Position numbers and translations under genes: made by a program. 64,000 nucleotides of DNA from Mangrovimonas spongiae. GTDB lineage: Bacteria > Bacteroidota > Bacteroidia > Flavobacteriales > Flavobacteriaceae. This document shows, one piece after another, positions 9,420-13,848 of the stretch; within the stretch, counting starts at the first letter, position 1; each line of letters starts with the position of its first letter. The stretch spans positions 434,001-498,000 of the forward strand of contig NZ_RWBG01000001.1 in assembly GCF_003944795.1 (NCBI RefSeq), in the 5' to 3' direction. The notes under the pieces were generated by a model. It saw only the letters and a program-made list of their open reading frames with translations. It did not search any database and was not told where the DNA came from.

Positions 9420-11237
9420 TTAAAACCTGTAATTAATACCAAGAATAATATTGCCTTTTGGCATAGGAACTAAATTAGTTTCGTAATAATCTTGGTTAAA
9501 AATGTTATTGGCTATAAGAGATAGGTTTAACTTTTGGTTTATAGTTGCTGTAACATTGGCATCAAGAACAATATACGATTGCCCAGTGGTGCGTTCTAGA
9601 TATTTATAAACAATACTATGATTTAGATGTTTTATAAACGATGTTTTTAAAGTTCCTACAACTTGGTGTTTTAAAGAGTTTATAGAATATCTTGAGAAGT
9701 TATTGGCCACAGCTTTTACATCATCATCGATAAAGGTATATCCTAAAGATATATTTTGAGGTAATTGCGCCAAATTAAAGGTGTAGTCTGTTTGTAACTC
9801 CACCCCTTTTGTGTTAACATCTCTTACATTAGTAGCTTGCCAAAGGTCGGTGTCGTTTTCTTTTACAAAGTCGATTAATTTTCTAGAGTCTCTATTAAAA
9901 ACAGTTGCTGTGGCATGTAGTTTTCCAGAGTTGAATTTTAAACCAATTTCTTCGGCTATAGCTTCTTCAGGATCTAGGTTTTCGTTTCCTAGGGTAGTTG
10001 GGTCGCTATAGTATAAGTCGGTATATGTAGGAATTCTGTATGTATATCCTATGTTTCCGTACACACGAAGTTTATCGTTTATTTGATAGCCTAAATCGAT
10101 ACCAGGGAAAGCATGGAATTTAAAATCAGAAAAATACGTTATTGCCACACCAGGTGTAATATCTAAGTTATCATTTATTAACTTAAATCGGTGTTCCATA
10201 AATACATTAGTCATAAATCTATCGCGTTGACCTAAGTTATTACTAGAAATATACACTTTGGCAAGGTCTACACCAAAACCTGTGGTTCCTAATTTAGATT
10301 TGTACGATCCGTGTAATTCTGCACCAATTTTGTTGGTTTGGTGCAAGTTTCGGTAAACTGCAGGGTTGTGTCTTATAAACACGTACATGTCTTGATTCCA
10401 TTTCCAGTACAATCTTGGTTTAAGAGTAAGGTTTCCATTTCTGTAATTAGAAGAAACTCCAAGTAAGCTTGTTTTCGTTTCTTCGTATTGGTCTTTAGCA
10501 CTTGGCGACGCATAAAACCCGTTAGCACCAAAATCTCTTTCTTGATAACTAGCAGTTACACTTATAGGCATTTTTTTATTTTGATTAAAGGTGCTTTTTA
10601 AGAAATAATTTCTGTTTTCATAATCGGTATTATAGCGGTAACCGTCGGAAGTATTAGAAGAGGCATGCACGATATGTGACGATCCTTTGATATTAAACCC
10701 AAACGTACCATTTATTAATTGCTGGTTATTAGATCCTAATTGATACCCCACTGAATTAATGTTGTCTACATTACTTTTAGTAACAATATTAATAGCTCCA
10801 GTAAAGGCATTTTGCCCAAAAACACGAGCGGCAGGACCTTTTATTATTTCAATACGCTCAATAACATCAAGTGGTAAAGCCATATTAAGAGTGTGGTGTC
10901 CCGTTTGGGCATCGTCCATTTTCATACCATCAATTAATAGAAGGGTTTGATCAAAACCTCCACCTCTTATATAAAGGTCACCTTGCATACCATTCGAGCC
11001 ACGACGTCTTATATCTACACCAGCTACTTGTTGTAATAAATCTGAAACACTAGTTGCAGGACTTTCTTTAATATCTTTTGATGATATTACAGTAATGGTT
11101 CTAGAGTTTTCTTTAAAAGGTAAATCAATTCTAGAGGATGTAATAACAACTGAATCTAGATCTTGTTGTTGTAATTCTTGAGCATAGCTTGTAAGCGTAG
11201 CTAATATAAATAATGAGAAAAAGGGTATAAATTTCAT
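9420..11237 (-). CDS. BtuB-like TonB-dependent outer-membrane receptor
   Basis: 605 residues: signal peptide (MKFIPFFSLFILATLTSYAQ), TonB box-like DSVVITSSR, a plug domain (NSRTITVISSKDIKESPA...GVDIRRRGSNGMQGDLYIRGG, then IKGPAARVFGQNAFTGAINI), and a barrel ending NYRF. It lacks the carboxypeptidase-like N-terminal domain of the other receptors here and is close to the short BtuB type, which imports cobalamin and similar chelates. No cobalamin riboswitch fits in the 78-bp upstream gap. The gene is divergent from a MocR-like regulator, which suggests regulation by that protein. The substrate is unknown. Confidence 0.88.
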   Translation of the reverse strand: MKFIPFFSLFILATLTSYAQELQQQDLDSVVITSSRIDLPFKENSRTITVISSKDIKESPATSVSDLLQQVAGVDIRRRGSNGMQGDLYIRGGGFDQTLLLIDGMKMDDAQTGHHTLNMALPLDVIERIEIIKGPAARVFGQNAFTGAINIVTKSNVDNINSVGYQLGSNNQQLINGTFGFNIKGSSHIVHASSNTSDGYRYNTDYENRNYFLKSTFNQNKKMPISVTASYQERDFGANGFYASPSAKDQYEETKTSLLGVSSNYRNGNLTLKPRLYWKWNQDMYVFIRHNPAVYRNLHQTNKIGAELHGSYKSKLGTTGFGVDLAKVYISSNNLGQRDRFMTNVFMEHRFKLINDNLDITPGVAITYFSDFKFHAFPGIDLGYQINDKLRVYGNIGYTYRIPTYTDLYYSDPTTLGNENLDPEEAIAEEIGLKFNSGKLHATATVFNRDSRKLIDFVKENDTDLWQATNVRDVNTKGVELQTDYTFNLAQLPQNISLGYTFIDDDVKAVANNFSRYSINSLKHQVVGTLKTSFIKHLNHSIVYKYLERTTGQSYIVLDANVTATINQKLNLSLIANNIFNQDYYETNLVPMPKGNIILGINYRF

Positions 11238-11276
11238 AATACTGTTAGTTCATGTTTTTTAACGCGGCAAAAGTCG

Positions 11277-11330
11277 TAACTTTCCGGATCATTAAAATAG
11301 TCCAGTTTTAAAACTATGAATGGTCCGGTT
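11277..11330. promoter_or_regulatory. Divergent control region with three TCCRG direct repeats
   Basis: TCCGG (11283), TCCAG (11301) and TCCGG (11324) occur in the same orientation, 18 and 23 bp apart, the last inside the start of the MocR-like gene. Each sits near an AAA-rich tract. MocR-family regulators commonly bind direct repeats, so these are candidate operator half-sites; a near-match -7 element, TAACTTTC, overlaps the first. The assignment is inferred. Confidence 0.35.
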
Positions 11331-12806
11331 GAAACTTTATTAAAACGCTTAATTTTTTTCGAAAAAACACAACCCACAGCGGTTTATATTCAAATAGCAC
11401 AACAAATTATTAATGCAATCCAGCGAGGCTATTTAATTGAAGGTACAGTCTTGCCTGGAACACGTAAATTTGGGGAGTTACTATCAATTAACAGAAATAC
11501 AGCTGTAGCTGTTTATGAAGAATTAGCATCGCAAGGTTGGGTAGATATTGTTCCTAATAAAGGAACGTTTGTACTTCTTCCAGAAAAAAGAACAGCAACA
11601 ATAAAAGCGACAACACATGGAATAGATCACGTAAGAGATTATCCTAAAAAAGCAGGATTTCCTTTTCAATCCTCAATTAATTTAGCCTCTACTCAAGAGT
11701 TTTCAAATTGTACTTATAGTGTTAACGATGGGCAACCCGATTTACGGTTACACCCTACGCATCAATTTTCGCGTTGGTATAGTGCATCTATGAAACGAAC
11801 AGGATTAATTTCTAAATGGAATAGAGCTGGCGAGCCATCATACAATTTCGGGAAATATTTAAGCAATTATTTAAACGCTACGCGGGGATTTCACATTACG
11901 CCCAACAATATTATGAGTACGCGAAGTACCGAAATGAGCTTGTATATTGTGTCGCAATTATTAATAAAGCCCAACGATATTGTATTGGTAGCAGATTTAA
12001 GTCATTTTGAATCGAATATGATTTTTCAACAAGCGGGAGCTACAGTAAAAACCATTCCTGTTGATGCTCATGGCATTAATGTCGATTTTATAAAAACACA
12101 TTTTACAAAAGGCAACATACGATGTGTTTATGTTTGTGCACATAGGCATTATCCAACAACGGTAACGTTAAGTGCCGAGCGCCGTTTAAAACTGCTACAG
12201 TTAGCAAAAGCTTATAAGTTTGCTATTATAGAAGATGATTACGATTACGATTTTCAGTTTGAAGGATCTGCCATGCAGCCTATGGCAAGTTCCGACGCAT
12301 ATGGCATGGTTATCTATTTAGGAAAGTTAGGGCAATCGTTGTTTCCTAGTTTTCAAATAGGATTTGTTGTTGCTCCAGAGTATATAATTAATGAAGCTAA
12401 AAATTATTTACAGATATTAGATAAGCAGGGTGATTTAATACAAAAGCAAATGCTTTCCGAGCTTATTGCCGAAGGTGAAATACACCGTTTAATTAAAAAA
12501 AACAGCACCGTTTATAAACAACGATTAGATTATTTGTGCGATTGCCTTAAAAAGTATTTCAAAACAAAAATGGTATGGCAAAAACCCTCCGGCGGATTAG
12601 CCATTTGGTTGCATTTCACCCCGAGAATATCGCTTATAAAATTAGCCGAAAAAGCAAAACATTACGATTTATTGTTGCCGAAAACTATCTTGTATCACGA
12701 TAAAAATACGTGTGCCATTAGGTTTGGTTTTGGGCATTTAAATGAAGAAGAAATTAAAGAGGTGATTAAAAAATTGCAACAGGCTTATAATGATATTGTA
12801 GATTAA
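11316..12806 (+). CDS. MocR/GntR-family regulator with degenerate PLP-binding site
   Basis: 496 residues: an N-terminal winged helix (about 20-90, YIQIAQQIINAIQRGYLIEG...LPGTRKFGELLSINRNTAVAVYEELASQGWV) fused to a fold-type I aminotransferase-like domain (about 125-490). Family landmarks remain: HRHYPTTVTLSAERR, IIEDDYDYDFQFEG and IRFGFGHLNEEEI. The segment that normally holds the PLP Schiff-base lysine (canonical GTFSK..LFP..R.GY) reads GKLGQSLFPSFQIGF, so the lysine is Gln340 and the phosphate-binding arginine is Gln347. It probably cannot hold PLP as an internal aldimine. It is divergent from the BtuB-like receptor and presumably controls it. The family call is secure; the target is inferred. 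Confidence 0.88.
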   Translation: MNGPVETLLKRLIFFEKTQPTAVYIQIAQQIINAIQRGYLIEGTVLPGTRKFGELLSINRNTAVAVYEELASQGWVDIVPNKGTFVLLPEKRTATIKATTHGIDHVRDYPKKAGFPFQSSINLASTQEFSNCTYSVNDGQPDLRLHPTHQFSRWYSASMKRTGLISKWNRAGEPSYNFGKYLSNYLNATRGFHITPNNIMSTRSTEMSLYIVSQLLIKPNDIVLVADLSHFESNMIFQQAGATVKTIPVDAHGINVDFIKTHFTKGNIRCVYVCAHRHYPTTVTLSAERRLKLLQLAKAYKFAIIEDDYDYDFQFEGSAMQPMASSDAYGMVIYLGKLGQSLFPSFQIGFVVAPEYIINEAKNYLQILDKQGDLIQKQMLSELIAEGEIHRLIKKNSTVYKQRLDYLCDCLKKYFKTKMVWQKPSGGLAIWLHFTPRISLIKLAEKAKHYDLLLPKTILYHDKNTCAIRFGFGHLNEEEIKEVIKKLQQAYNDIVD

Positions 12807-12859: not shown

Positions 12860-13369
12860 ATGAAAACTATCAAGCTTCTTAAAACAGCCATTGATATTTA
12901 TTATTACTTGATGTTAATGGCTTTAGTCTTTGGTGTAATAACCTTGCCTATTTTGCTATTTACTAATCAAAGCTATCAAGTTAATATATTTGATTCGGAA
13001 CCAATTGATTTGGGTATGCTAGACACCTTGGAGACATTAATAATTGTGGTTTCCATGATTGCGGTATTGGGCATTTACTTTGTCGCGATACGTTTAATAA
13101 AGCAAACGGTTAATATCATGTCGTATGGCAATTATTTTTCAGATGATGTAATAATAAATTTAAAAAAGATAGGCCAGCTATTTATTGTCTGTGCCTTTGG
13201 TTTTTCAGTATTAAAACTCCTTATAAATCTTGTGCTATTTAGCCAATTTTCAATAAACATAAATTCAACATTTATGATATTCTTGATTATGGGGCTTTTT
13301 ATGATGTTTTTAAGTGAGGCTTTTGCTTCGGCAAAACAAATGAAAGATGAAAATAACTTAACGATATAA
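12860..13369 (+). CDS. DUF2975-type four-helix membrane protein (first copy)
   Basis: 169 residues with four hydrophobic segments (about 15-35, 55-78, 108-130, 138-160) and the family layout in which helix 2 is followed by IRLIKQTVNIMSYGNYFSDDVIINLKKIGQLF. The C-terminus KDENNLTI matches that of the next protein (KKENDLTI), so the two are tandem paralogues. DUF2975 proteins are often encoded with a small Cro/CI-type HTH protein, as here. The biochemical role is unknown. The next gene starts after a 2-base gap (TAATTATG), implying coupled translation. Confidence 0.8.
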   Translation: MKTIKLLKTAIDIYYYLMLMALVFGVITLPILLFTNQSYQVNIFDSEPIDLGMLDTLETLIIVVSMIAVLGIYFVAIRLIKQTVNIMSYGNYFSDDVIINLKKIGQLFIVCAFGFSVLKLLINLVLFSQFSININSTFMIFLIMGLFMMFLSEAFASAKQMKDENNLTI

Positions 13370-13371
13370 TT

Positions 13372-13848
13372 ATGAAAAAGGTGAAAATTTTATATACCGT
13401 GATTTTTATTAGTATAGTTTTATATATTATTCATTTTATAATGAATACATTCTTGATGTATTATAAACCTGAATTTTTAAACTTTCCTAAAACATTTTAT
13501 TCTCAATTTATTTTTGGGTATTATACTCAGTTTGTGAGTTTATTTTTTTCAATACTAACATTTATTGCATTGTTTTATGTTAAATCTGGTTTAGGCGTAA
13601 TTATTAAAGAAGGTTTCTTTAATGCTAAATGTTCTAAACAATTTAAAATTTCAGGCAACATATTTCTAATTACAGGTAGTTTAAGTTTTTTATGGTATTT
13701 ACTACTCCTTTTTTATTCTAAAGGGAAAATGCCAATTAGTGGTGCTTCAGATGTGTTATTAATTATTATTGGTTTAGGAATGTTAGTAATAACAGACATT
13801 GTTAAAAACGGACATTTAATAAAAAAAGAAAACGATTTAACCATATAA
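13372..13848 (+). CDS. DUF2975-type membrane protein (second copy)
   Basis: 158 residues with four predicted membrane helices (about 7-28, 48-70, 95-118, 127-146). It keeps the segment between helices 2 and 3, KSGLGVIIKEGFFNAKCSKQF, where the first copy has a similar F(S/N) turn. It is diverged from its neighbour and is recognised mainly by layout, shared C-terminus and position. It lies in the same operon, 2 bases after the first copy and 2 bases before the HTH gene, with an identical TAATTATG junction at each side. Function unknown. Confidence 0.7.
   Translation: MKKVKILYTVIFISIVLYIIHFIMNTFLMYYKPEFLNFPKTFYSQFIFGYYTQFVSLFFSILTFIALFYVKSGLGVIIKEGFFNAKCSKQFKISGNIFLITGSLSFLWYLLLLFYSKGKMPISGASDVLLIIIGLGMLVITDIVKNGHLIKKENDLTI

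Follow-up and report, generated by a model that had tools for sequence, protein, structure and literature searches.

A BioL-type MocR regulator without the PLP lysine, paired with a predicted biotin receptor gene in Flavobacteriaceae

Introduction

MocR regulators are described as PLP-dependent. In a survey of these proteins the lysine was conserved in every cluster (PMC6677901), and its removal destroys function in MpaR (K314A; PMC10790758). In Elizabethkingia, the MocR repressor BioL acts on bioEFD and bioBA. Its signal is stated to be 8-amino-7-oxononanoate (AON). K340 is predicted to be the PLP lysine, and repression is lost in the K340A mutant (PMC12915131).

The regulator described here is encoded by Mangrovimonas spongiae and lies in the window, by which is meant the whole 64,000-nucleotide stretch that was analyzed (contig NZ_RWBG01000001.1, positions 434,001 to 498,000). 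It is one of about 100 orthologues in which the lysine is missing. No report of a natural lysine-less group of MocRs was found in the searchable literature, the scope of which leaves out most subscription papers.

The regulator and its cofactor site

The regulator has the architecture of the MocR subfamily, a GntR winged helix-turn-helix (wHTH) fused to a fold type I domain, and lacks the Schiff-base lysine of that subfamily (Table 1). Among solved structures, PdxR (7pq9) is the top sequence match (E 1.6e-41). The AlphaFold2 model (pLDDT 85.6), which is confident in the sensor domain, has GabR 4mgr as its top Foldseek match (E 2.8e-31).

The motif around residues 337-347 reads YLGKLGQSLFPSFQIGF. 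The sequence-only reading of this DNA had proposed that glutamine replaces both the PLP lysine and the phosphate arginine in an otherwise intact fold, and had named alignment with PdxR as a check. The PdxR structure alignment sets GAFSKSLIPSVRI opposite GKLGQSLFPSFQI, so that Gln340 falls on the Schiff-base lysine site and Gln347 on the phosphate arginine site, as had been proposed. The EDDYDYDF motif, Arg469 and the wHTH are all present, and the remainder of the aminotransferase-like domain is intact. Both Arg469 and Arg50 of the wHTH are invariant in every row compared.

Table 1. Positions in the window of the regulator, its receptor partner and the predicted operator
Feature	Coordinates	Strand	Basis or remark
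TonB-dependent receptor, 605 aa, BtuB-like below cut-off, predicted biotin/dethiobiotin receptor	9420-11237	-	
Predicted operator between divergent genes	11266-11313		48-bp conserved block ahead of start codon
MocR-type regulator, 496 aa	11316-12806	+	GntR wHTH + aminotransferase-like domain
GntR winged helix-turn-helix, residues 24-86	11385-11573	+	Pfam PF00392
Fold type I aminotransferase-like sensor domain, residues 155-487	11778-12776	+	Pfam PF00155; PdxR 7pq9, GabR structures
Arg277 (GabR H248)	12144-12146	+	Orthologue alignment
Asp307 (GabR D279, pyridine N1 contact), kept	12234-12236	+	Orthologue alignment
Lys337, new positive charge at the position of the phosphate-contact Ser (SxxK)	12324-12326	+	Orthologue alignment
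Gln340, Schiff-base lysine position (GabR K312, BioL K340)	12333-12335	+	Alignment
Gln347, phosphate arginine position (GabR R319)	12354-12356	+	Alignment
Arg469 (GabR R430, ligand carboxylate), kept, C-terminal	12720-12722	+	Orthologue alignment

Conservation of the altered site

A genome scan gave 70 orthologues of 64-73% identity, from Flavobacteriaceae wherever the titles give a family or genus. A scan of the same family added 26 further orthologues beside the window, and 96 were aligned altogether. Residue 340 is Gln in 95 of the 96 and His in one, and residue 347 is Gln in 80 and His in 16; the lysine and the arginine are both absent across the whole orthologous group. Outside MocRs have Lys340 and Arg347 in 26 of 26. 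Residue 277 is Arg in all 96 members of the Gln340 group and His in 12 of 14 Lys-bearing relatives. Asp307 and Tyr279 are each present in 95 of the 96 orthologues, and Asp310 and Arg469 in all of them.

Compared with the sister species, dN/dS is 0.045/0.561, or about 0.08, a value that indicates purifying selection. A sequencing error or a dying gene is ruled out by the conservation of Gln340 together with this low ratio. Judged from the alignment, the loss of the lysine is old and maintained. A further copy of the regulator, at a contig start in a genome of the same genus (G028, L167 48-1525), has decayed and contains 14 in-frame stops; an intact-looking operator is still located ahead of it (C1:16-40).

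Residue 337, which corresponds to the phosphate-contact Ser of the SxxK motif, is Lys in 91 of the 96 orthologues and Arg in five. The sequence-only reading had named a conserved lysine elsewhere in the active site, such as Lys337, as the finding that would overturn it. Possibly, Lys337 took over the Schiff base, the protein being an ordinary PLP regulator with its lysine moved by three residues. Lys337 is nearly fixed with Gln340 and arose again with His, Asn or Asp340, as would be expected in that case. However, four of the five Arg337 orthologues are close relatives of the window regulator, and because arginine is unable to form an aldimine, Lys337 is ruled out as the replacement lysine. 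We give this explanation hardly any credence, and the lysine loss stands. As residue 337 is a phosphate-contact site, a charge role is likelier than a Schiff base.

The following observations bear on this charge: 1) in 66 of 67 rows a positive charge is present at either 337 or 340 but not at both; 2) the change of Lys340 to a neutral residue is accompanied by Lys or Arg at 337; 3) the switch to Lys337 arose twice, once with Gln340 and again in a second lineage, with His, Asn or Asp340; 4) in Arg340 lineages residue 337 stays neutral. From these rows, the conserved feature seems to be a positive charge rather than the Schiff-base lysine, and the swap between 337 and 340 looks like a remodelling of the pocket.

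The divergent receptor

The TonB receptor gene is divergent from the regulator at all 70 of the 70 orthologous loci, and the same pairing is found in Lys-bearing Sphingobacteriaceae. Genes downstream of the regulator are variable among loci. A relative of the receptor is present in 23 of 23 tested genomes that have the group's regulator versus 1 of 15 genomes of the same family without it. Because the receptor is such a conserved partner, the two proteins likely form a nutrient-sensing unit. This part of the sequence-only reading holds, and the nutrient is probably biotin; its description of the unit as unrecognised has to be given up in part, as the unit belongs to the BioL-type MocRs of the biotin regulon, of which it represents the receptor-linked branch.

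The cargo of the receptor is probably biotin, as suggested by gene order: bioB lies immediately behind the receptor gene at 10 of the 64 orthologous loci with room for it, and in further genomes. A different cargo, for example cobalamin, the link to biotin being merely historical, would agree with the best NCBIfam match of the receptor, BtuB (TIGR01779), although its 169.9 bits are far under the cut-off of 599.7. The receptor-bioB gene order, an operator common with bio operons, the co-occurrence of the receptor with the BioL group and its association with lost biotin synthesis all speak against a different cargo, which makes it improbable.

Two adjoining DUF2975 membrane proteins are encoded 3' of the regulator (window 12860-13848). 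They are ruled out as its partner, since this neighbor is not conserved. In genome G043 a receptor with 58% identity (C6:1064-2854, L229) occurs with no match to the regulator, bioA, bioB, bioD or the operator.

The operator

The block between the two divergent genes has the core CCGGAT-N10-GTCCAG at 11284-11305. It is conserved in the Gln340 group, mostly at 1.3-2 bits per position, versus about 0.3 bits in the flank. An alignment of both types shows the same block, with changed half-sites, ahead of Lys-bearing bio-linked regulators, so it is common to the bioE promoter of the relatives. With a matrix built from eight sites of Lys-bearing members, of which four are bioE-linked and four receptor-linked, the window site scores 35 bits and the runner-up in the window 8.6. 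The own genome has exactly one operator match, which rules out a wider regulon there.

In same-family genomes that have no such regulator, the operator is missing at the bio loci, and it is missing at the unlinked bio cluster of G122 as well. In G298, which carries Arg340, bioB and the receptor gene are both unlinked, the latter at a distance of 28 kb, and operator-like sites are located ahead of both. An operator before an unlinked receptor gene was looked for in Lys-bearing bio-linked genomes and not found. Sphingobacterium haloxyli (G490) has a relic (L207 6560-6935) behind an operator-like site: the beginning of bioE continues directly as the last part of bioB, and the bio operon was apparently lost through internal deletion.

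Biotin genes of relatives and hosts

Outside the receptor pairing, the nearest Lys-bearing relatives are divergent from a five-gene operon in the order bioE-bioF-bioD-bioB-bioA. It encodes a 207-aa protein followed by BioF-like, BioD, BioB and BioA proteins; the first has no Pfam, NCBIfam or PDB match and is named bioE by gene order. In a second family, bioE and bioF are divergent from the regulator, and the lysine is kept at all 25 of the 25 loci with this linkage. The bioE-linked MocRs, which were filed as BioL by gene order, and the window regulator fall into one clade with 100% SH-aLRT support.

Control of bioEFD and bioBA, the role of BioL, has no counterpart in the own genome (99.95% complete), where bioA, bioB and bioD were searched for and none was found. 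Its BirA has 243 aa and no HTH. Among genomes with the Gln340 regulator, bioA is present in 2 of 36 and bioD in 3 of 36, versus 12 of 15 for each gene in same-family genomes without the regulator (Fisher test applied for bioA). A strict rule that the lysine goes wherever the pathway goes fails. Genomes G155 and G122 have bioA, bioB and bioD despite Gln340, and receptor-linked Sphingobacteriaceae keep the lysine though bioA and bioD are missing; pathway loss therefore does not force lysine loss. BioY was found in none of the 59 genomes searched, prototroph or not, and is thus ruled out as the inner-membrane partner.

Recurrent loss of the lysine

In the second family, bio-linked members always keep Lys340; in receptor-linked members the residue is K, R, H, N or D. 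In a 72-row tree, 33 of the 47 receptor-linked members are without the lysine, versus none of the 20 bio-linked members. Nine changes at the lysine were inferred on a larger tree, by parsimony five losses and four returns, and all of them fall in receptor-linked branches, which make up 44% of the tree length (P 0.0006). L135 (beside bioB) and L136 (unlinked, but with an operator at the receptor gene) were included among these branches although their receptor gene is not adjacent. No change was inferred in bio-linked branches or in the outside MocRs. Independent and sister-pair tests, which take relatedness into account, do not reach significance because independent linkage changes are few (linkage changed only about three times). 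As reconstructed on these trees, loss of the lysine is recurrent and occurs only after the regulator type shifted from bio genes to the receptor gene.

In the receptor-linked members L109, L277, L279 and L284 degradation extends to the Asp/Tyr motif at the cofactor site, which reads, for example, EDGGNT or ETDQDFDI.

Two further explanations retain either the cofactor or the repressor without a signal. PLP might still be the cofactor, held non-covalently by Asp307, Tyr279/Tyr309 and Lys337 or Arg337 on the phosphate, with the ligand acting on free PLP. The near-invariance of Asp307 and Tyr279, the new positive charge at the phosphate-contact position and the otherwise intact domain fit this arrangement. 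However, the phosphate arginine is gone too in the Gln340 group, lysine removal abolishes function in both BioL K340A (PMC12915131) and MpaR K314A (PMC10790758), and the Asp/Tyr motif, too, is missing from some lysine-changed receptor-linked members (L277 ETDQD). We regard non-covalent PLP as unlikely. Alternatively, the protein could be a ligand-free regulator, a constant or concentration-dependent repressor with a sensor domain that serves dimerization only, as might be suggested by the cofactor site of receptor-linked branches, which has eroded more than once, to R, Q, H, N and D. The pocket is not eroding here, however: Arg277, Asp310, Arg469 and Gln340 are invariant or nearly so, and the charge swap has the appearance of remodelling. 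A ligand-free regulator is therefore quite unlikely.

A model for control of biotin uptake

By combining these observations, it is possible to suggest how the system works. The lysine loss, its recurrence, the receptor partner, the common operator and the missing bio genes are read from the sequences themselves. The window regulator is probably a BioL-derived regulator of biotin uptake that forms no PLP aldimine and responds to a non-amine ligand, perhaps biotin.

The regulator would be a BioL-type MocR whose target has shifted from the synthesis of biotin to its uptake. It would bind the single palindrome-like operator in the 78-bp gap and control the divergent receptor gene, and probably its own gene too. 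The ancestral BioL would have sensed an amine that arises during biotin synthesis, by way of lysine-held PLP. Once the host depended on imported biotin, this intermediate would no longer be made, and the lysine would be free to go. The pocket may then have been rebuilt around the moved positive charge (Lys337, Arg277), so that an anionic ligand is bound with no Schiff base. Biotin, dethiobiotin or biotinyl-AMP would be the likeliest ligand. When biotin is plentiful, the regulator would shut the receptor gene. Repression, the biotin cargo and the identity of the ligand are what we infer. The earlier claim that the protein must sense differently thus stands insofar as lysine and arginine are gone group-wide; that it senses biotin or a close non-amine derivative is the added suggestion. 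Somewhat more speculatively, a PLP-dependent amine sensor may have turned into a cofactor-free biotin sensor several times in parallel, each time by losing the lysine and relocating the charge.

Related branches with Arg, His, Asn or Asp at the lysine site represent a natural mutational series of a cofactor-based sensor that is changing. Many marine flavobacteria appear unable to make biotin and have no BioY, and the own genome also lacks a DNA-binding BirA. For these bacteria, the regulator-receptor pair offers a testable candidate system for taking up biotin and controlling this uptake.

Comparison with known systems

Among solved structures, PdxR of Bacillus clausii (7pq9, 7zn5) matches best by sequence, but both lysine and arginine are present in it, and the genes it regulates are those of vitamin B6. 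GabR of Bacillus subtilis (4n0b, 4mgr, 5x03), the top structural match, has the same combination of a GntR wHTH with a fold type I domain, and the equivalents of its Asp279, Tyr281 and Arg430 are kept in the window regulator. In GabR, however, the PLP and GABA aldimines are formed on Lys312, and the window regulator has no equivalent of either Lys312 or Arg319.

BioL shares the domain plan of the window regulator, and in both proteins the site of the PLP lysine carries the number 340. The nearest Lys-bearing relatives of the window regulator stand opposite bioE-F-D-B-A, with the operator block in common. The window regulator differs from BioL in having Gln for the lysine, Gln for the phosphate Arg and Arg for His277. 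It is also paired with a TonB receptor gene, rather than a bio operon, in a host without bioA, bioB and bioD.
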